The translations under genes were made by a program, and so were the position numbers. Below the pieces are notes generated by a model. That model ran no database searches, had not been told where the DNA came from, and was given only the letters and a program-made list of their open reading frames with translations. This document shows positions 323-41,416 of a stretch of DNA of 53,564 bases, in pieces. Source of the DNA: Fluviicola sp. GTDB lineage: Bacteria > Bacteroidota > Bacteroidia > Flavobacteriales_D > Crocinitomicaceae. Where the stretch lies: positions 1 to 53,564 of the forward strand of contig JADLGD010000044.1 in the NCBI GenBank assembly GCA_020849495.1. The letters run 5' to 3'. The number at the start of each line of letters is the position of its first letter. Position 1 is the stretch's first letter.

Positions 323-2182
323 TTATTCAATCCCCATCGCTTTTTTATAGGCATTCTCACCGCCAACAACAGGTAAAGTTAATTGTGTTCCATCTAAATC
401 AACAGTCAAAACAGTTCCTGGATCAGGCCAAAGTGTGAATTCTTTGTCACTCGAAAAAATCATCAAGCCAATTTGTTGACCTTTCGGTATCACTTGATCA
501 TCCGGCATTAGATTAAAGCTCAAATCGTAAAACGTATTCGGAGCTAAAGGTTCACCTTTTGTAAGTGATTCGCGATTTTGAGGATCGGCCCAAGCTCTCG
601 TTATAATATTGTCATAGACTACCGTTCCTTTCTCTGTTTCCCAAGGCAAAGCAACCAACCAAACCGACAAATTAGCAGCTGGTTTACTGCTTGCTAATCT
701 GATTTTAATTGTTGAAACGCCTGAAATGCGTAAATCTTCTTTCAATGTTGGTGAAACAAACAACAAGCGGTGTGCTTCATTTTTAACTTCAAGCAATTCT
801 TTTCCAGAATAACGCACATTATCAATCAACGAATCGGTTTCATTTTTCTCTTTTTCAACAAGAACAAGGTGTCCCGTATTACTTACTCCTTTGTGCGGAT
901 AGATGGTCACATCTTGTGCATTTTCATCTGGATAACTGGAATAAACAGTTGGTTTGTATTCATGTTCTCTTACGATGTAAACAGCAGGATCTTTCTCTAC
1001 TCCATTTTCTATTCCATGGAGATAACGCGTAAACCAACGATTCATCATGGTCAATGAAGGGTCTCCTCCATGGTCTCCTTGATGGTAATACATTTGAACA
1101 GGCAATCCTTTCGCTTTTGCTGCTGCATAAAAACGGTAACTTTGTTCAGTCATCACATTCCAATCATTGAAGCCATGAGCCATGATCATCGCAGCTTTCA
1201 TGTTATCTATTTTGCTCAAATAATCCCTACTCGCCCAAAAATCATTGTAATCTCCAGTGATTCGATCTTCATTTTTCAATAAAATGGAATCGCGAACAAA
1301 GCGGTTATTTTGTTTGCGCTTGGATTTATCTCCAGTATTGATCACATCGTACAACACATCCATGTCTTCTCCCAAATATCCTTCAGGTGAACGAACCAAA
1401 CCATTCGATCTGTAATAATGATAAAAAGAAGTAACTGGCGCTACAGGAATAATTGCTTCCAAACCTTCTACTCCTGTTGTTGCAGCGGCAATACATAAAG
1501 TTCCATCGTAGGAAGTTCCTGTCATTCCCACTTTTCCATTGCACCAAAATGCTGTCACTTCTTCTAATCCTGTTCGAGTAGTGTATCCTTTTACTCTACC
1601 GCACAACCAATCGATGACTGCTTTTGGAGCCAAGGATTCATTTTCTCCTCCAATTGTTGGTGAACCATCAGAAAAGCCAGTTCCAGGAGATGAAGAATAT
1701 ACCGTTACATATCCTCTTGGCACCCAAGTTCGATCCGAATAAGAGGAACCAAAAGGACGTTTTTTTCTAGTGCCCAATTTTACATGTCGATGCGCTTTGG
1801 GTTGTTCTCCCAATTCATGTTTCACATTCCAATAGTTTTTCTTCTCTGAAAAGCCCAATAGCGCCCATAATTTCAAACCATTATAAGGACTGGACATATA
1901 AACAACAGGAAGTTTCAATTCTTTGGAATTGGTTTGAGCAGGACGCGTTAACATGACATGCATGCGATCCAACTTTCCATCATTATCTGAATCGAATGTT
2001 GTTTCAACCCATAATTCTTCTTTGATCCATGTATCAGCATTCGCGAATGCAGGAACAATTTGTGCTTCTCCGTTTTTAAAAACAGGCTGTGGAACAGAAG
2101 TGTTTGTTTCTTGAGCTAGTACATCATTCAATAAAATTGATGTATAAATAAGCATACTGAAGTGATAAATGTGTTGTTTCAT
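323..2182 (-). CDS. Exported CocE/NonD-family hydrolase (X-Pro dipeptidyl-peptidase, S15-like)
   Basis: An alpha/beta-hydrolase peptidase predicted to act outside the cytoplasm. Numbering from the longest possible start at 2236 (637 aa), the nucleophile is Ser242 in GTSYDG, with Asp358 in HGFNDWN and His389 in QGDHGG as the likely triad. The C-terminal third (about 430-637) has the jelly-roll look of the X-Pro peptidase C-terminal domain. I prefer the ATG at 2182 (619 aa) because it gives a proper signal peptide (MKQHIYHFSMLIYTSILLN, Ala-Gln cleavage); the extra 18 residues from 2236 precede it and look non-native. Family members remove X-Pro dipeptides or hydrolyse esters; the true substrate cannot be read from sequence. 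It could equally be a CocE-type esterase. Confidence 0.85.
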   Translation of the reverse strand: MKQHIYHFSMLIYTSILLNDVLAQETNTSVPQPVFKNGEAQIVPAFANADTWIKEELWVETTFDSDNDGKLDRMHVMLTRPAQTNSKELKLPVVYMSSPYNGLKLWALLGFSEKKNYWNVKHELGEQPKAHRHVKLGTRKKRPFGSSYSDRTWVPRGYVTVYSSSPGTGFSDGSPTIGGENESLAPKAVIDWLCGRVKGYTTRTGLEEVTAFWCNGKVGMTGTSYDGTLCIAAATTGVEGLEAIIPVAPVTSFYHYYRSNGLVRSPEGYLGEDMDVLYDVINTGDKSKRKQNNRFVRDSILLKNEDRITGDYNDFWASRDYLSKIDNMKAAMIMAHGFNDWNVMTEQSYRFYAAAKAKGLPVQMYYHQGDHGGDPSLTMMNRWFTRYLHGIENGVEKDPAVYIVREHEYKPTVYSSYPDENAQDVTIYPHKGVSNTGHLVLVEKEKNETDSLIDNVRYSGKELLEVKNEAHRLLFVSPTLKEDLRISGVSTIKIRLASSKPAANLSVWLVALPWETEKGTVVYDNIITRAWADPQNRESLTKGEPLAPNTFYDLSFNLMPDDQVIPKGQQIGLMIFSSDKEFTLWPDPGTVLTVDLDGTQLTLPVVGGENAYKKAMGIE

Positions 2183-2271
2183 ACGCGATAAATGTAGAGC
2201 AAAAAAAGGCGATTTGAGCATTTTATTCATATACATTGTGAAAAGAATAGAAAGAAAAACATCACTATCAT

Positions 2272-2811
2272 CTAATCATAGATCAATGTTTTCTCTTCAA
2301 TAATATAAAAACCAAAGCTCCCTTTTTGCAGTTCTAATTCAATCATTTTAGGATTTGAAATAACAAAATGACAAGGAAAGACAATTTGTTTTTGGTGCCC
2401 TTTAAAGCTTACCAATACAAATGGTGGTTCACATCTGTTTTTAGAATTTGTTAATGTTCCAATTTCTAAAATCTTCAATTTGACTTTTTCAAAATTATCT
2501 GTCGGAAAATAATAGTTAATACTCAATAATAGAAAACCTAAAATACCACCAAACATGATGATTCCATGTAGTGCTTTTTGCCAAAATGGATGCTTGGACT
2601 GGACATAATAGTTGATTTTTTTTCTTAATAAAAGAAAAAGTAATAACCCTCCAATTAGTGAAAATAATAGCGGAAAATAAAAAGGCACAAACGTTTTTCG
2701 AAATAACATCATTTCCCAAAGGATCAATATCAATGAAACAAAAGTGATAACTCCAATTATTCGTTGTTGTCTTAATTTGGAATTCTTTTTCATACTTTCT
2801 TCAAATTGCAT
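2272..2811 (-). CDS. Hypothetical three-span membrane protein
   Basis: 179 residues with three hydrophobic segments (about 18-37, 43-62 and 82-101) followed by a soluble C-terminal domain of about 75 residues that contains two Cys (C127, C147) and ends in YD. A second ATG at 2793 (MKKNSKLRQQ) would shorten it by six residues and is equally plausible. I recognise no family. The soluble tail lies after an odd number of spans and would be extracytoplasmic if the N-terminus is inside. It stands 35 bases upstream of the S15-like peptidase and may share its transcript. Confidence 0.6.
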   Translation of the reverse strand: MQFEESMKKNSKLRQQRIIGVITFVSLILILWEMMLFRKTFVPFYFPLLFSLIGGLLLFLLLRKKINYYVQSKHPFWQKALHGIIMFGGILGFLLLSINYYFPTDNFEKVKLKILEIGTLTNSKNRCEPPFVLVSFKGHQKQIVFPCHFVISNPKMIELELQKGSFGFYIIEEKTLIYD

Positions 2812-2953
2812 CCAGAGTAAAAATACACATGAAAATCATTTATAAATTCTTACCACACAAAAAAATCTGCTATTCACCCATTCAAACACGCTTTTCATCC
2901 AATTTGATTGTTGTGTCAATGAAATTCTGCTAGATTCGTTGAAAACTACTCAA

Positions 2954-3817
2954 ATGAAAAAACACTTTTTACTGCTTCCCCTTTTGGGCCTTTTGGTTGC
3001 TTGTGGCGGAAATTCCACCTCTTTGCCAACTACCAATGAAAATACTGAAAATTCTAGTTCAGAGAACAAAGACCCATTGGATTTACCAGCAAAAACAATG
3101 ACTTTTGAAGAAGCTATAGCAGACACCACAACGACAGAACATCATGTTTCCATTGAGGGGTACGTTCAATTAGCTACGATTTCAAACATTGGAGACAAGG
3201 AACAAACGGTTAATTTCTACGGGAGAAAAAATCAAACAAATGGTCATTATATCTACACCAATATGCCTGTTGGAAATGATAAAAACCAAATGAAAAAATT
3301 GCCATTGGAGTACGATAAAAAAGATGTGGTTATTCATGGATCTAAAAATGAAACCATTGGATTAAATCAGCGTGTGAAAATGACAGGATTATTGTATACG
3401 ATTAAATCGAGCACATCGGATAGTCCGGGAACTGTTTACTTCAAAGTTTCCACGATTACTCCAGTTGCAGAAAAAGACTTTGACTATTCGTCTTGGAAAA
3501 CGGTAAAATCGTTTGATGACGTCGCTAAAACTGAAAATAATCACAATGAATATTACCTTGAAGGCACTTTAGATGTTCCAATGTTTGTGTTAACTGGCTG
3601 GGAAATGGGATTGGATTTGAAAAAAGGCGGACAAACTGTAAGCATCAAAATCCTAACAGGAGATGGCCCGAATCAAATGGAGAACTTGGAAGACAATTGG
3701 ACGAAAAAAGATATCAAAATCCGAAATCACAAAGGTCAATTGGTTAAACCTGGCCAAAAAGTAAAAGTCTATGGTGTAGCTGCCTTAGATGGTTTACATG
3801 TTGAAAGAATCGAATAA
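2954..3817 (+). CDS. Lipoprotein with two OB-fold-like repeats
   Basis: 287 residues from the ATG at 2954; an in-frame TTG 15 bases earlier is less likely. The N-terminus is a lipoprotein signal (FLLLPLLGLLVAC, lipobox LVAC), then a Ser/Thr/Asn/Glu-rich linker to about residue 45. Two related halves follow. The first opens MTFEEAIAD and has HHVSIEGYVQL then LNQRVKMTGLLY; the second opens VKSFDDVAKTE and has NEYYLEGTLDV then PGQKVKVYGVAA. Both also share a DKKDVVIHG / TKKDIKIRN strand. This strand pattern suggests tandem OB-like beta-barrels. No enzyme motif is visible and the function is unknown. A hairpin follows at 3837-3865. Confidence 0.75.
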   Translation: MKKHFLLLPLLGLLVACGGNSTSLPTTNENTENSSSENKDPLDLPAKTMTFEEAIADTTTTEHHVSIEGYVQLATISNIGDKEQTVNFYGRKNQTNGHYIYTNMPVGNDKNQMKKLPLEYDKKDVVIHGSKNETIGLNQRVKMTGLLYTIKSSTSDSPGTVYFKVSTITPVAEKDFDYSSWKTVKSFDDVAKTENNHNEYYLEGTLDVPMFVLTGWEMGLDLKKGGQTVSIKILTGDGPNQMENLEDNWTKKDIKIRNHKGQLVKPGQKVKVYGVAALDGLHVERIE

Positions 3818-3836
3818 AAACAACCAATAACAATGC

Positions 3837-3865
3837 AAAACTCCATTACTATGTGATGGAGTTTT
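3837..3865 (+). terminator. Hairpin terminator after the OB-repeat lipoprotein gene
   Basis: AAAACTCCAT (3837-3846) pairs perfectly with ATGGAGTTTT (3856-3865) across a 9-base loop. It lies 20 bases after the stop of the lipoprotein gene and before the next start, and its own 3' arm supplies the T-rich end. Confidence 0.6.
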
Positions 3866-3906
3866 GTTGTATATGACTATTTTTGACAAAACAGCAAACG
3901 ACCTTC

Positions 3907-4419
3907 ATGAAACATCTTGGTGCTTTTCTTTCTATCTTTTTTATTGCAGTTTCGTTAACAAGCTGTCAAAAAAACTGTGATTGTTCTAAAAAACAAATGG
4001 AAGTGTTTCAAGCACAAATGCTACAACATTACGTGACTGACATTCCTGAAGATTCTCTTATTTGTCGATACAAAGATGGACTTTGGTTGGTAAAACGCAG
4101 TAGTTTTTTAGACTGGCAATTGGGATTTGATGAAGAACAACTGGAAGAAGAACGCGAATTCGAAATCTACAAGTTACCTTTAAGAGATGCATCTTTAGTC
4201 ATTCCATTTATTCGCCATATTCGTTCGAAAGGTTTTGAAATTGAATATTTAGAAAAAGAAGGTCGTGAAGACAGCTTGATAACCTTTCAATTGTTTCAGG
4301 AAGAAGAAGGTATTCGCATCAAGCAAACCTATAAGTTCAAAGGAAAGCATTGGAAATACGATGGTGAATTAGCGACTCCATTTACCGTTGCAAATGATCG
4401 AATCGATTTTTCAAATTAA
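3907..4419 (+). CDS. Hypothetical lipoprotein
   Basis: 170 residues starting at ATG 3907 (an upstream TTG at 3883 is in frame but gives a poor leader). The N-terminus MKHLGAFLSIFFIAVSLTSC ends in a clear lipobox (LTSC), and the mature protein begins QKNCDCSKKQ with a small Cys cluster. The rest is a charged mixed alpha/beta domain rich in Glu with no motif I recognise. Only two bases separate its stop from the methyltransferase start, so it heads a four-gene plus-strand run (3907-6328). Confidence 0.65.
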   Translation: MKHLGAFLSIFFIAVSLTSCQKNCDCSKKQMEVFQAQMLQHYVTDIPEDSLICRYKDGLWLVKRSSFLDWQLGFDEEQLEEEREFEIYKLPLRDASLVIPFIRHIRSKGFEIEYLEKEGREDSLITFQLFQEEEGIRIKQTYKFKGKHWKYDGELATPFTVANDRIDFSN

Positions 4420-4421
4420 GT

Positions 4422-4982
4422 ATGGACAAAGAATTTTGGAAGGAAAAATATGCTAATCAGTCAACTGGTTGGGATTTGGGAGAAGTTTCCCCACCTTTAA
4501 AAGCTTATTTTGATCAATTGACCAATAAGGATTCAAGCCTTCTAATTCCCGGTTGTGGATTTGGACACGAAGCGATTTATTTACATCAACAAGGATTTAC
4601 AAACATCACGGTCATAGACTTGGTTGGAGATGCATTGCAATACATAAAAGAAAAAGCACCATCAGTTCAATGCATTGAAGGAGATGTGTTTGAATTGAAC
4701 GCAACATTTGATACCATCATTGAACAAACATTGTTTTGTGCGATCAATCCCGTTTTGAGAGAAAAATACGTGGCAAAAATGTCTCAATTGCTGTCTAGTC
4801 AAGGCAAATACGTCGGACTCTTGTTCAATCGTGCATTTGATGGAGGGCCTCCATTTGGTGGAAACATCAATGAATACTCGGCTTATTTCTCAAGCTATTT
4901 CAGTGAATACACGATGGATGAATGCTATAATTCGGCAAGTCCAAGATCTGGAAATGAAGTTTTTTTTATCGCTAAAAAATAA
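4422..4982 (+). CDS. TPMT-family SAM-dependent methyltransferase
   Basis: 186 residues, a complete class I methyltransferase. The N-terminal FWKEKYANQSTGWDLG signature and the SAM-binding motif I LIPGCGFGHEAIYL (about 41-54) match the thiopurine S-methyltransferase family; the acidic motif II is in VIDLVG (about 64-69) and EGDVFEL lies in motif III. Bacterial members methylate small thiols, selenium or tellurium compounds, or other small molecules; the substrate here is unknown. It sits between a lipoprotein and a YdcF protein with gaps of 2-3 bases, so it is co-transcribed with them and with alkB-like. Confidence 0.8.
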   Translation: MDKEFWKEKYANQSTGWDLGEVSPPLKAYFDQLTNKDSSLLIPGCGFGHEAIYLHQQGFTNITVIDLVGDALQYIKEKAPSVQCIEGDVFELNATFDTIIEQTLFCAINPVLREKYVAKMSQLLSSQGKYVGLLFNRAFDGGPPFGGNINEYSAYFSSYFSEYTMDECYNSASPRSGNEVFFIAKK

Positions 4983-4985
4983 TCC

Positions 4986-5753
4986 ATGTTTTTCATCCTA
5001 TCGAAAATATTGTATTTCCTGATTGGTCCATTTACTTGGTTGATCATCGCACTTTACTTTGCTTTTTTTTCAAAGAAACCCATCCGAGCAAAACGAGGGA
5101 AATACTTCGCCATCGGCATCCTCTTATTCTTTAGCAATACCTTTATTTACAAAGAAGTTTGCAGACAATGGGAAGTGTTTGGAACGCCCATTTCTAAAGT
5201 TGGCAAGTATGACGTTGCCATTGTTTTAGGTGGAATGACGGAATACAACAATGATTTGAAAGAGCTGAGTTTGAGAAGAGGTGGTGATCGTATTTGGCAG
5301 GCAATTTCTTTATACAAAACCAAACACGTTAAAAAGATTCTCATCAGTGGAGATCATGGTTATTTAATTGACCGAGGGATGCATGAAGCAGATCAACTGA
5401 AAGCTGTTTTAGTGAAATGGGGAATTCCTGAAAAAGACATTCTCACAGAATCGGTTTCTAAAAACACCTATGAAAACGCTCAAGAAACGAAGAAAATACT
5501 TCAACAGCAACTTCCAAAAGCGAAACGATTTTTATTAGTGACCAGCGGTCGTCACATGCGCAGATCCTTGGCTTGTTTTGAACATGCTGGCATTCAATGT
5601 CAACCATTCTCAACGGATTTATATACGGGACCAAAACGCTTCTACACCTTTGAAGATTACATCCTGCCGAATGTTTCTGTCATGGATGATTGGCATGGGT
5701 TAATCAAAGAAATGATTGGGTATGTTGCCTATGCAATTACTAGGAAAATCTGA
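4986..5753 (+). CDS. YdcF/SanA/ElyC-family (DUF218) membrane protein
   Basis: 255 residues. Two N-terminal membrane spans (about 7-27 and 37-55) precede a DUF218 domain with its usual landmarks: DVAIVLGG, KKILISGDHG, the SKNTYENA motif and FLLVTSGRHMRRS. Proteins of this family (SanA, ElyC, YdcF) affect envelope integrity and lipid-carrier use in other bacteria, but the biochemical reaction is not established. The stop codon shares one base with the next ATG, so the AlkB-like gene is translationally linked. Confidence 0.82.
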   Translation: MFFILSKILYFLIGPFTWLIIALYFAFFSKKPIRAKRGKYFAIGILLFFSNTFIYKEVCRQWEVFGTPISKVGKYDVAIVLGGMTEYNNDLKELSLRRGGDRIWQAISLYKTKHVKKILISGDHGYLIDRGMHEADQLKAVLVKWGIPEKDILTESVSKNTYENAQETKKILQQQLPKAKRFLLVTSGRHMRRSLACFEHAGIQCQPFSTDLYTGPKRFYTFEDYILPNVSVMDDWHGLIKEMIGYVAYAITRKI

Positions 5754-6328
5754 TGAAATGGGATCTTCCAAATGCACGATTGTACTTTGATCAACACTTC
5801 ATTGAACCTGTTGAAGCAAACCGATTGTATCATCATTTTGTAGAACATACTGCCTGGGAACATCTCCCCTTTCGCATTTTTGGTAAAACGGTAAATACAC
5901 CCAGATTGGAAGCTTACTTTGCTACTGAAGGCGAACGTTATTCCTACTCTGGCAAAACCTTGATCGTTCAACCGTTTGATGAACTGTTAGTTCAATTAAA
6001 GCAACGAATAGAACAAATTGCGAACGCAGAATTCAACGCTGTTTTGATCAATTATTATAGAGATGGTAACGATAGCAACGGCTGGCATGCGGATGATGAA
6101 AAAGAATTAGGGAAAAATCCAATAATCGCTTCTTTGTCATTAGGCACAACTAGAAGATTTGATTTCAAACACAACACCTTATTAGAAAAACACCAGTTGG
6201 AATTAACTTCTGGCTCCTTACTCATTATGTCGGGTGAAATGCAACATCATTGGAAACACCAAATTGCTAAAACGAAACGGGTGCATAGTGGTAGAATCAA
6301 TTTGACTTTTAGAAAAATCATTCACTGA
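5753..6328 (+). CDS. AlkB-like 2-oxoglutarate/Fe(II) dioxygenase
   Basis: 191 residues, the usual length for the ALKBH2/bacterial AlkB group. The iron ligands are visible: His112 and Asp114 in WHADDE and a distal His (H169) in MQHHWKHQI; the 2-oxoglutarate-binding arginines lie in GRINLTFRK near the end. NYYRDGNDSNGWHADDE is the classic core. The family removes alkyl groups such as 1-methyladenine and 3-methylcytosine from nucleic acid by oxidation. It is the last gene of the plus-strand run and its 3' end overlaps the convergent HExxH gene by 11 bases, leaving no room for a separate terminator. Confidence 0.88.
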   Translation: MKWDLPNARLYFDQHFIEPVEANRLYHHFVEHTAWEHLPFRIFGKTVNTPRLEAYFATEGERYSYSGKTLIVQPFDELLVQLKQRIEQIANAEFNAVLINYYRDGNDSNGWHADDEKELGKNPIIASLSLGTTRRFDFKHNTLLEKHQLELTSGSLLIMSGEMQHHWKHQIAKTKRVHSGRINLTFRKIIH

Positions 6329-35534: not shown

Positions 35535-36845
35535 ATGTCTGATTTTTATTCATACTTACAACATTCTGGTAATCAGACACATTTCAATTGCCCTAAATGC
35601 AAAACCAAAACGTTATTGCATCATTATCAACAAGTTGAATTATTCGCATGTACTTGTGAGACCATTTATTGGACAAAAGAATTTCACCGATACCAACACC
35701 TCAATAATCATTTTGGATACAGAGGTCAAAAGTTAAAAATCGGAAGCCAAGGAGAATTTGAAGGAAAAACATATACTGTCATAGGAGTTGCACATAAAAA
35801 AGAATTGGGAAATCAGTTTGCAAAGTGGACGGAATTTGTATTAATCGATCAAAACAAAAACATTTCATTTCTCAATTGTTCGTATGGGAATTATACTTGG
35901 ATGTATATTTCAGATCGAATCAAGGCTGTTGATTTCATTACCAACATAGATGATTACATTGAGTTTGATGGGATTGAATACGAATTATTTTCTTCTTACA
36001 AACAATCAACGGAAGCAATACGTGGAGAGTTCCACTATAACCCTGTGAATATCAAAAAAATTGAGTGTTTTGATTTTATTTCGCCACCAAAAGTCATTTC
36101 AATTGAAAAAACGGAATCCAATACTTATGATTGTTTTGAAGGATTTCATATAACAAGAGAAAGAGTAGCTGAAATATTCAAAACGCCAGCAATAGCCTAT
36201 CAAGAGCATGAAGGAATTGGAATGGCTCAACCTTATTTCATTCATTTAAAAACTTCTCAAATCAATCGAATTGCATTGTTTTTTGCTCTTTTGATGATTT
36301 TAATGAGTGTCTTTTGGACTGCTTCTTTTTATGAGAAAAAATTGATTTATACTCAAATACCAGTTGATAAAGATCAACCGAAAGAAATTATAACCACCCC
36401 TTTTTACTTGAATGAATCTTTCAGTCCATATTATCTCCGTTTTGATGGTAATTCATATCTATCAAACGAATGGATAGAGGCCGGAATAACATTGGTGAAT
36501 GAAAAAAATGGTGAAGAAAAAGAACTTGGTTTTGTTTTGGAATATTATTCAGGTGTTGATAATGGTTATTCTTGGTCAGAAGGAAGTAACTCTGCCACAG
36601 CTTATCTTTCGGGAGTTGCTCCTGGAAAATATCACTTAAAAATCAAACCCTATTGCTCATTGATAACGAGTAAAAACATGGCTTTTTCAGCTCATATTGC
36701 ATCACCAGTTTGGTGGAATACAGGAATGATGATTCTATGTATCTTCGTTATCGTCATCATCTTAAATATTTTAGACCGCCAAGTAAGACGATTGCGAAGT
36801 GGAGAAATAGATAATTTATTTGGATCAAGTTACAATGAAGATTAA
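35535..36845 (+). CDS. Zinc-ribbon / DUF4178 membrane protein, first gene of a polyamine-linked operon
   Basis: 436 residues. An N-terminal zinc-ribbon has Cys19, Cys22, Cys39 and Cys41 (FNCPKCKTKT and FACTCET). A DUF4178 domain follows (about 65-185, with GSQGEFEGKTYTVIGVA, EFVLID and WMYISD). Two membrane spans (about 245-265 and 395-413) enclose a beta-rich region of 125 residues that should lie outside the cytoplasm (YYLRFDGNSYLSNEW, SATAYLSGVAPGKYHLKI). DUF4178 is of unknown function but is known to occur next to DUF350 and spermidine-synthase-like genes. Its stop overlaps the start of the next gene by 11 bases. Confidence 0.85.
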   Translation: MSDFYSYLQHSGNQTHFNCPKCKTKTLLHHYQQVELFACTCETIYWTKEFHRYQHLNNHFGYRGQKLKIGSQGEFEGKTYTVIGVAHKKELGNQFAKWTEFVLIDQNKNISFLNCSYGNYTWMYISDRIKAVDFITNIDDYIEFDGIEYELFSSYKQSTEAIRGEFHYNPVNIKKIECFDFISPPKVISIEKTESNTYDCFEGFHITRERVAEIFKTPAIAYQEHEGIGMAQPYFIHLKTSQINRIALFFALLMILMSVFWTASFYEKKLIYTQIPVDKDQPKEIITTPFYLNESFSPYYLRFDGNSYLSNEWIEAGITLVNEKNGEEKELGFVLEYYSGVDNGYSWSEGSNSATAYLSGVAPGKYHLKIKPYCSLITSKNMAFSAHIASPVWWNTGMMILCIFVIVIILNILDRQVRRLRSGEIDNLFGSSYNED

Positions 36846-37002
36846 ACGACTCATAAAATCAAACCTCGTTATATTCCTATTTTGTACGGTAGCATTTGCA
36901 CTTTACATTTGGGGAAATAGTTCAGGTTTTAAAATATTCAAATCTGAAGCAGGTAAAACATGGTCTGCAGGCGGACACAATGGTAGTATACATCACAAAT
37001 AA
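36835..37002 (+). CDS. 55-residue single-span peptide with Gly/Ser/His tail
   Basis: Begins at ATG 36835 inside the end of the DUF4178 gene. Residues 1-9 are basic (MKIKRLIKS), 10-26 form one hydrophobic span, and 27-55 are a hydrophilic tail whose end is KTWSAGGHNGSIHHK. The charge pattern predicts the N-terminus inside and the tail outside. There is no lipobox and no clear cleavage site. The tail has Lys, Ser and His side chains that could be modified. No family name is known to me; its fixed place in the operon suggests a structural or substrate role. Confidence 0.75.
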   Translation: MKIKRLIKSNLVIFLFCTVAFALYIWGNSSGFKIFKSEAGKTWSAGGHNGSIHHK

Positions 37003-37013
37003 ATAAGATTATT

Positions 37014-37229
37014 ATGGAATTAATCGTACAATCAAGTCACATTTGGGCATCAATCATTTATTCTTTTCTAGGAATTTTGATTTTAGTGTTTTCTTTCATT
37101 ATTATTGATTTACTTACACCAAGCAAACTTTGGAAGGAAATTACACAAAATAAAAACATTGCTGTCGCAATTGTTGCTGGAGCATTTATGTTAGCTATAG
37201 CCATCATTATTTCATCTGCAATTCACTAA
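37014..37229 (+). CDS. DUF350 (YjfL-like) small membrane protein
   Basis: 71 residues with two spans (about 11-33 and 48-70). The segment NKNIAVAIVAGAFMLAIAI is the DUF350 signature. The normal family consists of one or two such two-span units; this is a single unit. DUF350 genes (E. coli YjfL) are associated in other bacteria with polyamine and ATP-grasp genes, with no settled biochemical role. It starts 11 bases after the small peptide gene and ends two bases before the spermidine-synthase-like gene. Confidence 0.85.
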   Translation: MELIVQSSHIWASIIYSFLGILILVFSFIIIDLLTPSKLWKEITQNKNIAVAIVAGAFMLAIAIIISSAIH

Positions 37230-37231
37230 AT

Positions 37232-38734
37232 ATGCGGATTTTACTGTTAGTTACGATTTTTATTGTTTCAACTTGTGGATTGATTTACGAATTAGTTGCT
37301 GGAACACTTGCTAGTTATCTTTTAGGTGATTCAGTTACTCAGTTTTCTACAATAATTGGCACTTACTTATTTGCAATGGGACTTGGTTCCTATTTATCCA
37401 AATTTGTTCGAAACAAGTTAATCGAAACTTTCATCGTCATTGAATTACTAACAGGAATTGTTGGTGGACTGAGTAGCAGTATTTTATTTGTTTGTTTTGG
37501 TTATGGCGCATACTTCCACCTTGTTTTGTATTTTCTTGTAGGTTTAACAGGCATTTTTATTGGTTTAGAAATTCCTTTAATCATGCGTATTTTAAGGAAA
37601 AACTCTTCGTTTAAAAATTTAGTCGCAGATGTTTTTACATTTGATTATATAGGTTCATTATTGGCTTCAATAGCGTTTCCTATCATTCTTGTTCCCTATT
37701 TAAATTTGACCAGAACATCCATTCTTTTTGGATTAATGAATGTTGGTTTAGCACTTTATCTAACGTATTATTTTAGAATTCAAATAAAACGCCCTACAAT
37801 TTTATTTGTCCAAGGTTTGGTTTGTGCTGTCATTTTAACCTTCGGATTTATTAGTGCTGACACTGTTCAACGCATGAGTGAAGAAGAATACCATGGCGAT
37901 GGAATCATTTATGCCACCACATCTAAGTATCAACGTATCGTAATTACACGAGACCGAAATGCTTATAGTTTATTTCTTAATAATCACTTACAATTCAATT
38001 CTAGAGACGAATACCGATACCATGAGGCTTTAGTTCACCCTATTATGAGTCAATTAAATGCGCCAAGAAAAGTTTTGGTTTTAGGTGGAGGTGATGGTTT
38101 TGCGTTGAGAGAACTATTGAAATACCCAAGTGTAAAAAACATTACATTGGTAGATTTAGATGCCCGACTTGTTCAAATTTTCAAAGACAACGAGATGTTA
38201 AACAAGCTCAATCAGCACTCTTTTTCAAATCCCAAAGTCAATGTAATCCAACAGGATGCCTTTATATTTTTGCAACAAGCAAAAGGTGAAAAATACGATG
38301 CTATTGTAATTGATTTTCCTGATCCTTCCAACTATTCCATTGGAAAATTGTACACAACCACTTTTTTCAAAACACTTCAAAACGTGATGCATGAAAACAC
38401 CATTGGAGTGATACAAAGTACATCTCCCTTGTATGCAAAAGAATCTTATTGGTGTATCAATAATACCATCAAAGCAACCTATTTAGAGACTGTACCTTAC
38501 CATACTTATGTACCTTCATTTGGGGAATGGGGATACATTCAATTTTCATTCAAAACTTGTGATCAACAATTGAAACAACTACCGAAAGGATTGCGCTATT
38601 TTTCATCTAACGAATGGAAATCTATGCGCAATTTCCCAGCTGATATGCAACATCATGAAATTGTTATCAACCGATTGAGTAACCAAGCCCTCATTCCACT
38701 TTTTGAAAAAGAATGGGATTCACTATTTGAATAA
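37232..38734 (+). CDS. Membrane-embedded spermidine-synthase-like aminopropyltransferase
   Basis: 500 residues. The first 205 form about seven membrane spans, beginning CGLIYELVAGTLASYLLG. The rest is a spermidine-synthase fold: SKYQRIVITR, LFLNNHLQFNSRDEYRYHEA, the decarboxylated-SAM site VLVLGGGDGFALRE, VDLDARLV, the acidic loop IDFPDPSN in place of the catalytic-Asp motif, and KLYTTTFFK. Soluble SpeE makes spermidine from putrescine; the membrane-fused branch is widespread but its acceptor is not established. Context suggests an acceptor in or near the membrane. No S-adenosylmethionine decarboxylase gene lies in this operon. Confidence 0.88.
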   Translation: MRILLLVTIFIVSTCGLIYELVAGTLASYLLGDSVTQFSTIIGTYLFAMGLGSYLSKFVRNKLIETFIVIELLTGIVGGLSSSILFVCFGYGAYFHLVLYFLVGLTGIFIGLEIPLIMRILRKNSSFKNLVADVFTFDYIGSLLASIAFPIILVPYLNLTRTSILFGLMNVGLALYLTYYFRIQIKRPTILFVQGLVCAVILTFGFISADTVQRMSEEEYHGDGIIYATTSKYQRIVITRDRNAYSLFLNNHLQFNSRDEYRYHEALVHPIMSQLNAPRKVLVLGGGDGFALRELLKYPSVKNITLVDLDARLVQIFKDNEMLNKLNQHSFSNPKVNVIQQDAFIFLQQAKGEKYDAIVIDFPDPSNYSIGKLYTTTFFKTLQNVMHENTIGVIQSTSPLYAKESYWCINNTIKATYLETVPYHTYVPSFGEWGYIQFSFKTCDQQLKQLPKGLRYFSSNEWKSMRNFPADMQHHEIVINRLSNQALIPLFEKEWDSLFE

Positions 38735-38736
38735 CT

Positions 38737-40353
38737 ATGCAACGCAGAAGTTTTGTTAAATACTTGGGAACCATCAGCTTGGGAGCAATCATTGCACCAA
38801 AGCTATTATCTTGTGAAAGTGAGCGAAAAATTCGTTTAAAAACAATTGGAGCAGCAATTGAAAGAGGACACTTACTTCGTCAACCTTCTAAACATTTTGA
38901 TCAATATCCTGTTTCTAAAAAACAACAAAAAATAGTCGTTGTTGGAGGAGGAATCAGTGGACTATCGGCAGCCTATCATTTAAAACAATTGAAAGAAGAT
39001 GATTTTGTATTGTTAGAAATGAATCAACAGTTTGGAGGTAATTCTGCAAGTCATTCAAACGAATATTCAAAATTCCCTCTTGGTGCACATTATTTATCAC
39101 TTCCTAATCAAGATAATTGGGCATTGATTGATTTTTTAAAAAAAGAACAATTAATCGTTGGTGAACAAGATGGAAAATACATTTACAATGATGCCTTCAT
39201 CTGTCATTCGCCGAATGAACGTTTGTTTTACAGGGGATCTTTTCAAGAAGGATTGGTACCTGATTATGGTTTAAATGATGCAACACATCAGGAAATCGAA
39301 TCGTTTTTTAACTGGATGAAGCAACTGAAAAATGCTACAAACGAAACTGGTAAACAACTGTTTTCAATTCCAATTTCTAACTGTGATTATACTCCTCATC
39401 TAAAAGATTTAGACACAATTACCTTTAAAGATTTCTTAGATCAACATCAGTACACTTCTAAAGAATTGTGTTGGTTTTTGGATTATTGTTGTAGAGATGA
39501 TTTTGGCGCAGGTTATGACATGATTTCTGCTTGGGCTGGAGTTCATTATTTTGCAGCTCGTAAAGCAACACCATCGAATGCAGAATCAACTTCAGTTTTG
39601 ACTTGGTCAGAAGGAAATGATGCTTTAGTGAATCGATTAAAAAAACACTTTCCAAAACACTGTAAGGAAGATCAATTGGTAATTCAAATTGAAGAGCTCG
39701 AAAACCACGTTATCGTTCGTTCTTTTGATGTGGAAAAGCAAATCATCAACGAATACACCTGTGAACAATGTATTGTAGCAACTCCTTCTTATGTCAACAA
39801 ACACATACTTCATTCCCCTCAATGGCCAAAAAATTTCTTTGAAGGAATTAAACATCAACCATGGTTCATCGGAATTGCTGTAGTTTCACAATTACCTCAT
39901 ATCAACGGTTTGAGTTTGTCATGGGACAATGTTGCTTTTGGAACAAAAGGATTGGGATATATTTACAATCAACATCAGTCTCTAAAAACTTATCCAAAAG
40001 GACCATTTGTTTTGAGTGTATATATTACATTAGATAAAGCGGTGGATGAGTTTGAACGTCGAAGATTGTTTGAAATGTCGGAAGAAAAAATGACTGAAAT
40101 CGTTATTGAAGAACTAAAAACAATGCATCCTGAAATAGAAAAAGACATTCTTGAAATTTCCTTTCAAAAATGGGGTCATGGAATGGTTACTCCATATCCT
40201 GGAGCACTTGCAAAACACCATGCATTTGTTGAGCTTTCACAAAATGCCAAACGAACGCATTTAGCTCATACCGATTTTGCCTCTTATTCTGTTTTTGAAG
40301 AAGGATTCGATGCAGGAAGAAATGCAGCCTTAAAAGTAGTGCATCATGTCTAG
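38737..40353 (+). CDS. FAD-dependent amine-oxidase-like lipoprotein with Tat-like signal
   Basis: 538 residues. The N-terminus QRRSFVKYLGTISLGAIIA is a twin-arginine type leader (RRxFxK) and is followed by LLSC with Cys26, so the protein seems to be exported folded, with FAD bound, and then lipidated. The dinucleotide site is VVVGGGISGLSAAYHL (67-82). FGGNSASHSNEYSKFPLG and a late ALAKHHAFVELS plus GFDAGRNAAL fit flavin amine oxidases and related desaturases. A polyamine or a modified membrane peptide is a plausible substrate, but this is inferred from context. Two bases separate it from the gene upstream. Confidence 0.85.
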   Translation: MQRRSFVKYLGTISLGAIIAPKLLSCESERKIRLKTIGAAIERGHLLRQPSKHFDQYPVSKKQQKIVVVGGGISGLSAAYHLKQLKEDDFVLLEMNQQFGGNSASHSNEYSKFPLGAHYLSLPNQDNWALIDFLKKEQLIVGEQDGKYIYNDAFICHSPNERLFYRGSFQEGLVPDYGLNDATHQEIESFFNWMKQLKNATNETGKQLFSIPISNCDYTPHLKDLDTITFKDFLDQHQYTSKELCWFLDYCCRDDFGAGYDMISAWAGVHYFAARKATPSNAESTSVLTWSEGNDALVNRLKKHFPKHCKEDQLVIQIEELENHVIVRSFDVEKQIINEYTCEQCIVATPSYVNKHILHSPQWPKNFFEGIKHQPWFIGIAVVSQLPHINGLSLSWDNVAFGTKGLGYIYNQHQSLKTYPKGPFVLSVYITLDKAVDEFERRRLFEMSEEKMTEIVIEELKTMHPEIEKDILEISFQKWGHGMVTPYPGALAKHHAFVELSQNAKRTHLAHTDFASYSVFEEGFDAGRNAALKVVHHV

Positions 40354-41416
40354 TTTTTGGATTCGATCTAGTAAATTTGATTTTTGGTGGTTCATTGCTC
40401 CTCTCTTGTTTCCTCCTTTGATTGCTTTTTTCATCCCCAATGACTATTTATCCCAACAACAAAAAGATATTTTTCCTTGGTCATGGATATTGATTGTTCT
40501 GACAATTGATGTAGCTCATGTTTACAGTACTGTTTATAAAACCTATTTCAATCCAACAGCAAAAGAAAAACATCGCTTAAAACTCATTGCTCTCCCTATT
40601 CTAGTTTGGATCATTGGTGCACTTATTTACTCGCAAAGCTCTCGTTTTTTTTGGAGCGTTGTTGCTTACTTTGCAGTATTCCATTTTGTGCGACAGCAAT
40701 ACGGATTTTTTCGTCTTTATTCGATCAAATCTATTGCTACACAAACTCAAAAAAGAGTATTGAATTGTTGTATTTATGCTGTAATGCTTATTCCAATATT
40801 GATCTGGCATGTGAGAGGTCAACGAAATTTCAATTGGATGACTGAAGGTGATTTCTTCTATTTCCCGAGTTCTACTTTAGAACCTATTCTTCAAGTTCTT
40901 TTTGCTGCTATCGTAATCTTTTATTGTTTATTGGAAATACGCTTAAAAAAAGAAAACAAGGCATTGAATGTTCCTCGAATCTTATTGACCTTATCAACAG
41001 CGTTTTCGTATTACGTTGCAATCGTAGTAACGAATAATGACTTTTTATTTTCACTCATCAACGTCATCGGACATGGAATTCCATACATGGCATTGGTTTG
41101 GTGGAGTGAAAAGAAAAGCTTGAACGAAACTAGTCCAAGCCTTCTTAAAATTGTGTTGTCAAAATGGGGATTTATTCTTTTCTATTTGATCATTTTTGCA
41201 ATGGCCTATTTTGAAGAAGCATTATGGGATGCTTTAGTCTTCAGAGAAAAACCATTGCCTTTTGGATGGACTTATCAATTCTTAAGTGAAATCAAAGATT
41301 CCATCGTTTTGATCATCGTTGTTCCTTTATTGATAATGCCACAAATAGTCCATTATATTCTTGATGGATACATTTGGAAAAACAAGCAAAATAAAACGTT
41401 TATTAGTTCTACTTAA
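40346..41416 (+). CDS. Multi-span membrane protein with conserved His/Asp motifs
   Basis: 356 residues, about nine spans. Polar motifs sit at membrane edges: DVAHVYSTVYKTYF, FHFVRQQYGFFRLY, INVIGHGIPYMALVWW and, at the end, HYILDGYIWK. Such spaced His and Asp residues recall membrane di-metal oxygenases or Brp/Blh-type dioxygenases, but none of the exact signatures is met, so I leave it unnamed. It starts eight bases inside the FAD protein gene and ends the operon, overlapping the convergent msrB gene by eight bases. Confidence 0.7.
   Translation: MSSFWIRSSKFDFWWFIAPLLFPPLIAFFIPNDYLSQQQKDIFPWSWILIVLTIDVAHVYSTVYKTYFNPTAKEKHRLKLIALPILVWIIGALIYSQSSRFFWSVVAYFAVFHFVRQQYGFFRLYSIKSIATQTQKRVLNCCIYAVMLIPILIWHVRGQRNFNWMTEGDFFYFPSSTLEPILQVLFAAIVIFYCLLEIRLKKENKALNVPRILLTLSTAFSYYVAIVVTNNDFLFSLINVIGHGIPYMALVWWSEKKSLNETSPSLLKIVLSKWGFILFYLIIFAMAYFEEALWDALVFREKPLPFGWTYQFLSEIKDSIVLIIVVPLLIMPQIVHYILDGYIWKNKQNKTFISST

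Follow-up and report, generated by a model that had tools for sequence, protein, structure and literature searches.

A 55-residue membrane peptide of Fluviicola sp. belongs to a widespread and previously unnamed family in which, judging by the alignment of its relatives, the only strictly kept feature is the C-terminal Lys. The family is found in operons encoding SpeE7TM, in which an aminopropyltransferase domain is fused to a membrane domain of seven spans. Among the sequences compared, the terminal residue of the partner protein tracks the enzyme: an amine is presented to the aminopropyltransferase, and a carboxylate (Gly or Ser) to an ATP-grasp ligase. Very probably the SpeE7TM system cannot function without the tail end. 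That the terminal Lys is itself an aminopropyl acceptor, in a microprotein design like that of DltX, we put at about an even chance.

The peptide and its operon

In the window, by which we mean the whole 53,564-nucleotide stretch analysed (contig JADLGD010000044.1), the ORF at 36835-37002 of the + strand opens with ATG and encodes MKIKRLIKSNLVIFLFCTVAFALYIWGNSSGFKIFKSEAGKTWSAGGHNGSIHHK, in which a single hydrophobic span is followed by the tail SAGGHNGSIHHK. The earlier note had described a 55-residue ORF with one hydrophobic span, embedded by overlap in a polyamine-linked operon, and the ORF call together with the Pfam matches of the neighbouring genes confirms this description. The overlap is on the upstream side only: the peptide start overlaps the end of the DUF4178 gene, whose stop ends at 36845, by 11 nt, and a gap of 11 nt separates the end of the ORF from the DUF350 ATG at 37014. 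For the neighbours, the Pfam assignments (DUF4178, DUF350, Spermine_synth and Amino_oxidase) proved correct on re-check, and the features are as follows.

35535-36845, + strand: DUF4178 protein, 436 aa, with an N-terminal Cys-pair zinc-ribbon-like part, DUF4178 and two further spans (PF13785, E 2e-12)
36835-37002, + strand: Lys-ended single-span membrane peptide, candidate aminopropyl acceptor, 55 aa (ORF; family in 79/80 loci)
36991-36999, + strand: conserved end His-His-Lys, codons CAT CAC AAA, with the Lys55 codon at 36997-36999 (kept in dereplicated relatives)
37014-37229, + strand: short form of DUF350, 71 aa, two spans (PF03994, E 1.1e-14)
37232-38734, + strand: SpeE7TM, 500 aa, seven-span membrane domain fused to aminopropyltransferase domain (PF01564, E 2.1e-38; NCBIfam NF002956, 625 bits)
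38737-40353, + strand: FAD amine oxidoreductase, N-terminus with twin-arginine motif and lipobox (MQRRSFVKYLG...KLLSC) (PF01593, Amino_oxidase, E 1.2e-18)
40346-41416, + strand: polytopic membrane protein, 356 aa, without known family (in 61/80 operons; alignment)

The peptide itself matched nothing in Pfam (E 0.001) or NCBIfam. At 55 aa and with no lipobox, it is unlike the Ctha_1186-type lipoprotein partners, which have a lipobox signal peptide and about 200 aa or more. DUF4178, the upstream coupled gene, is present in 79 of 80 operons, the short DUF350 was detected by profile in 73 of 80 loci, the FAD amine oxidoreductase is found in 74 of 80 operons (with the RR motif recognised in 45), and SpeD lies inside the operon or nearby in 65 of 80 loci. 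In the 356-aa membrane protein, alignment of relatives reveals four invariant His residues (58, 113, 243 and 336) and invariant Trp, Asp and Glu residues; it has no Pfam family, and its AF2 model (pLDDT 90.4) gave no confident match in a fold search against the PDB. It is possibly a metal-dependent membrane enzyme. The Fluviicola sp. genome has one other SpeE homologue, a SpeD-SpeE fusion on a different contig, so that ordinary spermidine synthesis is independent of the SpeE7TM operon.

The terminal lysine among relatives

Eighty loci were collected with their surroundings, using seven SpeE7TM N-domains as the query. Homologous short ORFs between DUF4178 and DUF350, which the earlier note had proposed to look for, were found at the equivalent site in 79 of the 80 operons and in several phyla. 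Because such ORFs recur at the matching place in operons fetched via the SpeE7TM protein, comparison confirms the peptide ORF as real and not a chance one. The remaining locus, L094, has no partner ORF where one is expected and was excluded from the 79. There, a 1267-aa ORF (2120-5923), whose C-terminal part looks by eye like a restriction-specificity protein, ends 78 nt before SpeE7TM; as it lies where other operon genes are expected, the locus reads as a rearrangement or misassembly.

The family members are single-span proteins of 45-80 aa. A selection blind to the tail, which took whichever ORF was coupled to the stop of DUF4178 and ended ahead of DUF350, yielded 70 proteins, and 67 of these end in Lys. 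The three that do not (from L053, L062 and L074) are mispicks, the correct ORF ending in Lys in each case, and the loci outside the 70, read by hand, are Lys-ended too, L094 excepted. The background frequency of terminal Lys, taken from larger ORFs of related loci, is 34/210, or 16%, which rules out a pure sequence accident. In the dereplicated family the final residue is Lys in 47/47; position -2 is His in 43 and Gly in four, and position -3 is mostly aromatic or His. Entropy is 0 at -1 and 0.4 bit at -2, and from -6 inward it lies at about 3 bits or above. The span and mid-tail vary among relatives, the tail staying rich in Gly, Ser, Arg and His, and in Chryseobacterium dN/dS is 0.12 over the last 27 codons versus 0.21 elsewhere. 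The Fluviicola peptide shares with its relatives the single span, the site between DUF4178 and DUF350, and the terminal Lys. In two loci, L083 (-1686 to -234 relative to SpeE) and L219 (7195-8589, - strand), DUF4178 and the peptide are fused in frame, with the tail last.

The earlier note had expected the tail to be more constrained than the span, and it is, with the constraint confined to the last two or three residues. The note had also considered Lys, Ser and His as suitable acceptors, of which the invariant Lys stands. Ser and His were rejected: beyond composition there is no constraint on Ser, Gly or Arg, and His swaps with Gly.

Is the terminal Lys a property of this peptide only? In operons with a long DUF350 the partner is a lipoprotein of about 230-250 aa that ends in GK in 14/14 cases (GGGGFGK, SGGFGK and RKGGGSGK among them), so that the Ctha_1186-type lipoproteins and the peptide, which ends in HK, have a terminal Lys in common. 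An Alteromonas lipoprotein of 510 aa ends in RNRGPSSGK, a 78-aa Ensifer partner in GPESGK, and the partners in Tritonibacter, Novosphingobium and Gemmatirosa in NSNRVK, TGPSHK and RFRHGK, respectively. The Alteromonas operon is on a plasmid, and in it a TelA-like protein adjoins DUF4178 and the lipoprotein ending in SSGK (L131, 9539-12727). In three genomes (G016, G018 and G060) SpeE7TM is not adjacent to DUF350, yet the partner on the DUF350 side ends in GK. These unlinked genomes rule out that Lys is kept merely through proximity to DUF350 and SpeE7TM, and, with the several partner types, they indicate that the Lys belongs to the system and not to one gene lineage. Two of them have been mapped as loci L200 (G018) and L201 (G060), and in G060 SpeE7TM is close to the family of the 356-aa membrane protein.

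Terminal residue and enzyme type

The ATP-grasp enzymes YgiC and YjfC are called peptide--spermidine ligase in RefSeq, a name which implies that they attach spermidine to the carboxylate of a peptide; the peptide-spermidine ligase activity was reportedly also named by Pederick et al. in 2023 (Biochemistry 62:899, cited in PMC12568646). Like the operon described here, theirs places a partner with a flexible Gly/Ser/Arg tail (YgiB or YjfM, of the DUF1190 family) beside a polyamine-attaching enzyme, in an operon of DUF350/PspA type. The ligase differs in using ATP and a carboxylate, and the partner tails in ending in GG or SS, with an internal RGGFG and no terminal Lys. DUF1190 (PF06693) is a lipoprotein family, and the peptide does not match its model. 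A search for GSP_synth, the ATP-grasp ligase, in G000 gave no match, and the peptide ends in HHK, not in Gly or Ser.

In E. coli the ligase partners YgiB and YjfM end in GG; those of Bacteroidota end in SS, GS, GG, HA or SL, and those of five plasmid ligase operons (Rhizobium, Sulfitobacter, Azospirillum, Vibrio and Asticcacaulis) in GG, GS or CG. Three further plasmid ligase matches (H93, H97 and H98) were left out, no DUF350 or DUF1190 gene being annotated alongside. None of the 26 ligase-type partners has a terminal Lys, and all end in small residues except for one Leu. The comparison is thus 98/98 with terminal Lys (79 + 14 + 5) in ligase-free SpeE7TM systems versus 0/26 with a ligase, for which the Fisher value of 2.5e-27 is descriptive only, the sequences being related. 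In the three hybrid genomes that have SpeE7TM, SpeD and a ligase, the partner tail is GG. Lys with SpeE7TM and Gly or Ser with the ligase suggest that the terminal residue follows the chemistry, an amine being alkylated in the one case and an amide made in the other.

As to the arrangement in the hybrids (L202, L205 and L206, in G053, G234 and G328), SpeE7TM is divergent from the GG-ended partner, the ATP-grasp ligase and SpeD, with SpeD on the SpeE7TM side in L202. DUF350 had no match in these three genomes.

A candidate aminopropyl acceptor

How might the operon use such a tail? We propose that the peptide is a membrane-anchored acceptor, as substrate or carrier, for the membrane-bound aminopropyltransferase of the operon. 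The span would anchor the peptide N-in/C-out, and the flexible Gly/Ser/Arg/His tail would offer a free C-terminal Lys, whose aminobutyl side chain might mimic putrescine and so receive the aminopropyl group. The Tat-exported FAD oxidase may afterwards oxidise or remove the added group. The earlier note had suggested that the peptide is a modification substrate, and the match of enzyme type with terminal residue points in the same direction, the probable site being Lys and neither Ser nor His. Several observations speak for the terminal Lys as acceptor: its invariance, the convergence on it of different partners, the opposite ends found with the ligase, and the neighbourhood of SpeD, SpeE and oxidase. 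In addition, the enzyme retains its catalytic DxxDP but differs on the acceptor side, and ordinary spermidine is provided for by the other SpeD-SpeE.

The GGGDG dcSAM site and the DxxDP of SpeE7TM are invariant in 47 relatives, and its AF2 model (pLDDT 88.6) gives a Z of 33.9 versus thermospermine synthase 6bq2. Comparison of the fused sequences with the canonical SpeE proteins of the same genomes indicates that the canonical putrescine pocket of SpdS (GPAEG gate, QGE and PTYPTGMW) is replaced: GPAEG becomes SNYSxGK, QGESP becomes QSTSP, and PTYPTGMW becomes PSFGEWG. In plant SpdS, Glu236/240 holds the ligand amine (PMC6514230), and by our reading of the motif the Glu of QGE would correspond to it. 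The acceptor pocket of SpeE7TM thus appears to be altered. Among solved structures, the nearest relatives are thermospermine and triamine/agmatine aminopropyltransferases; these lack the QGE Glu too, so that the pocket argues against putrescine and not specifically for a peptide.

On which side of the membrane would enzyme and tail meet? In 81/81 SpeE7TM sequences, loops 2, 4 and 6 have more Lys and Arg than loops 1, 3 and 5, and this pattern, with the seven spans of the model, suggests that the catalytic domain lies outside. The N-terminal flank of the peptide has a net charge of +4 versus +1 C-terminal of the span, and is the more positive flank in 45 of 51 relatives, which argues for N-in/C-out and a tail outside. 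In the L083 and L219 fusions, positive stretches ahead of the last span are consistent with this orientation. The outward-facing tail that the earlier note had described is thereby supported. The lipoprotein tails must be outside after export, and the FAD oxidase carries export signals. With the SpeE7TM domain outside, dcSAM must cross the membrane, and we found no precedent for dcSAM export. This is the weak point of the topology, and it counts against the terminal Lys as acceptor.

The terminal Lys could equally serve as a binding end. The tail would then be an unmodified recognition end that docks in DUF350 or in the acceptor groove of SpeE7TM and regulates the complex or brings it together; SpeE7TM itself would make free polyamine. 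A peptide that docks by its C-terminus would be expected to show constraint limited to the last two or three residues, regulators are common among single-span microproteins, and the SpeE fold is fully retained. We consider such a role rather doubtful, however, for it leaves unexplained both the Gly/Ser carboxylate ends of the ligase partners and the convergence of lipoproteins of another type on Lys, and the Fluviicola genome already produces spermidine by its other SpeD-SpeE.

Of the known working designs DltX comes closest: this microprotein spans the membrane once, and its C-terminal Tyr, which is extracellular, ferries D-Ala between the proteins DltB and DltD (PMC12148441). The peptide resembles DltX in its single span, its outward C-terminal residue and its polytopic membrane transferase partner. 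In DltX, by contrast, the Tyr is in an FXYXXF motif, the chemistry is acyl transfer and the partners are MBOAT and SGNH proteins, none of which was found here. Membership of the DltX family (PF12459) was rejected, the peptide having neither FXYXXF nor a Pfam match and the operon neither dltB nor dltD; the analogy is retained. Might the tail also act as a DltX-like shuttle, aminopropylated by SpeE7TM and then passing the group to an envelope component or being reset by the FAD oxidase? The outward C-terminal reactive residue, the membrane-enzyme operon and the exported oxidase would fit, but a shuttle seems quite unlikely: no second transferase is recognisable in the operon, a secondary amine, in contrast to an acyl-Tyr ester, leaves poorly, and other operons carry the tail on large lipoproteins.

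Could the end be conserved as a nucleotide signal (CAYAAATAA), serving termination-reinitiation or the DUF350 ribosome site, and not as a protein feature? This reading is very improbable and largely refuted. In its favour, AAA encodes the terminal Lys in 45 of 47 relatives and AAG in two, a stronger bias than in SpeE7TM (761 AAA to 339 AAG) and a nucleotide-level preference that weighs somewhat against the acceptor role, and synonymous change in Chryseobacterium is lower across the last 12 codons. But the His codons CAT and CAC are used evenly (23/20), -2 may be Gly, GC-rich relatives employ AAG, TGA or TAG (AAG TGA in Ensifer, AAA TAG in Gemmatirosa), and Lys persists where the DUF350 start is far off or the partner protein is a different one.

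Returning to the terminal Lys as candidate acceptor, there is a likeness to deoxyhypusine, for which deoxyhypusine synthase adds an aminobutyl group from spermidine to an internal Lys of eIF5A in the cytosol. Both place a polyamine-derived chain on a Lys amine; the modification proposed here differs in being aminopropyl, at a terminal Lys and not cytosolic. Closer to the present operon is group 2 of the CesT/Tir-PspA operons, with DUF4178, DUF350, a 7TM-spermine-synthase and the Ctha_1186 lipoprotein (PMC11237479). The accessible text of that paper puts forward the idea that SpeE7TM/DUF350/DUF4178 operons aminopropylate other substrates; within that text neither the peptide nor the terminal Lys is mentioned, and no acceptor is named. 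The operon described here shares the enzyme, DUF350 and DUF4178 with group 2, but has no PspA or CesT, and a single-span peptide of 45-80 aa replaces the lipoprotein of about 230 aa.

SpeE7TM with DUF350 and DUF4178 is widespread, and the small-protein family that goes with it has been left hypothetical or missed by annotation pipelines. The terminal-residue rule points to the residue that may serve as acceptor, and it is testable. Lys with the aminopropyltransferase and Gly or Ser with the ligase would bring under one principle two sets of polyamine-linked envelope operons, previously listed side by side.
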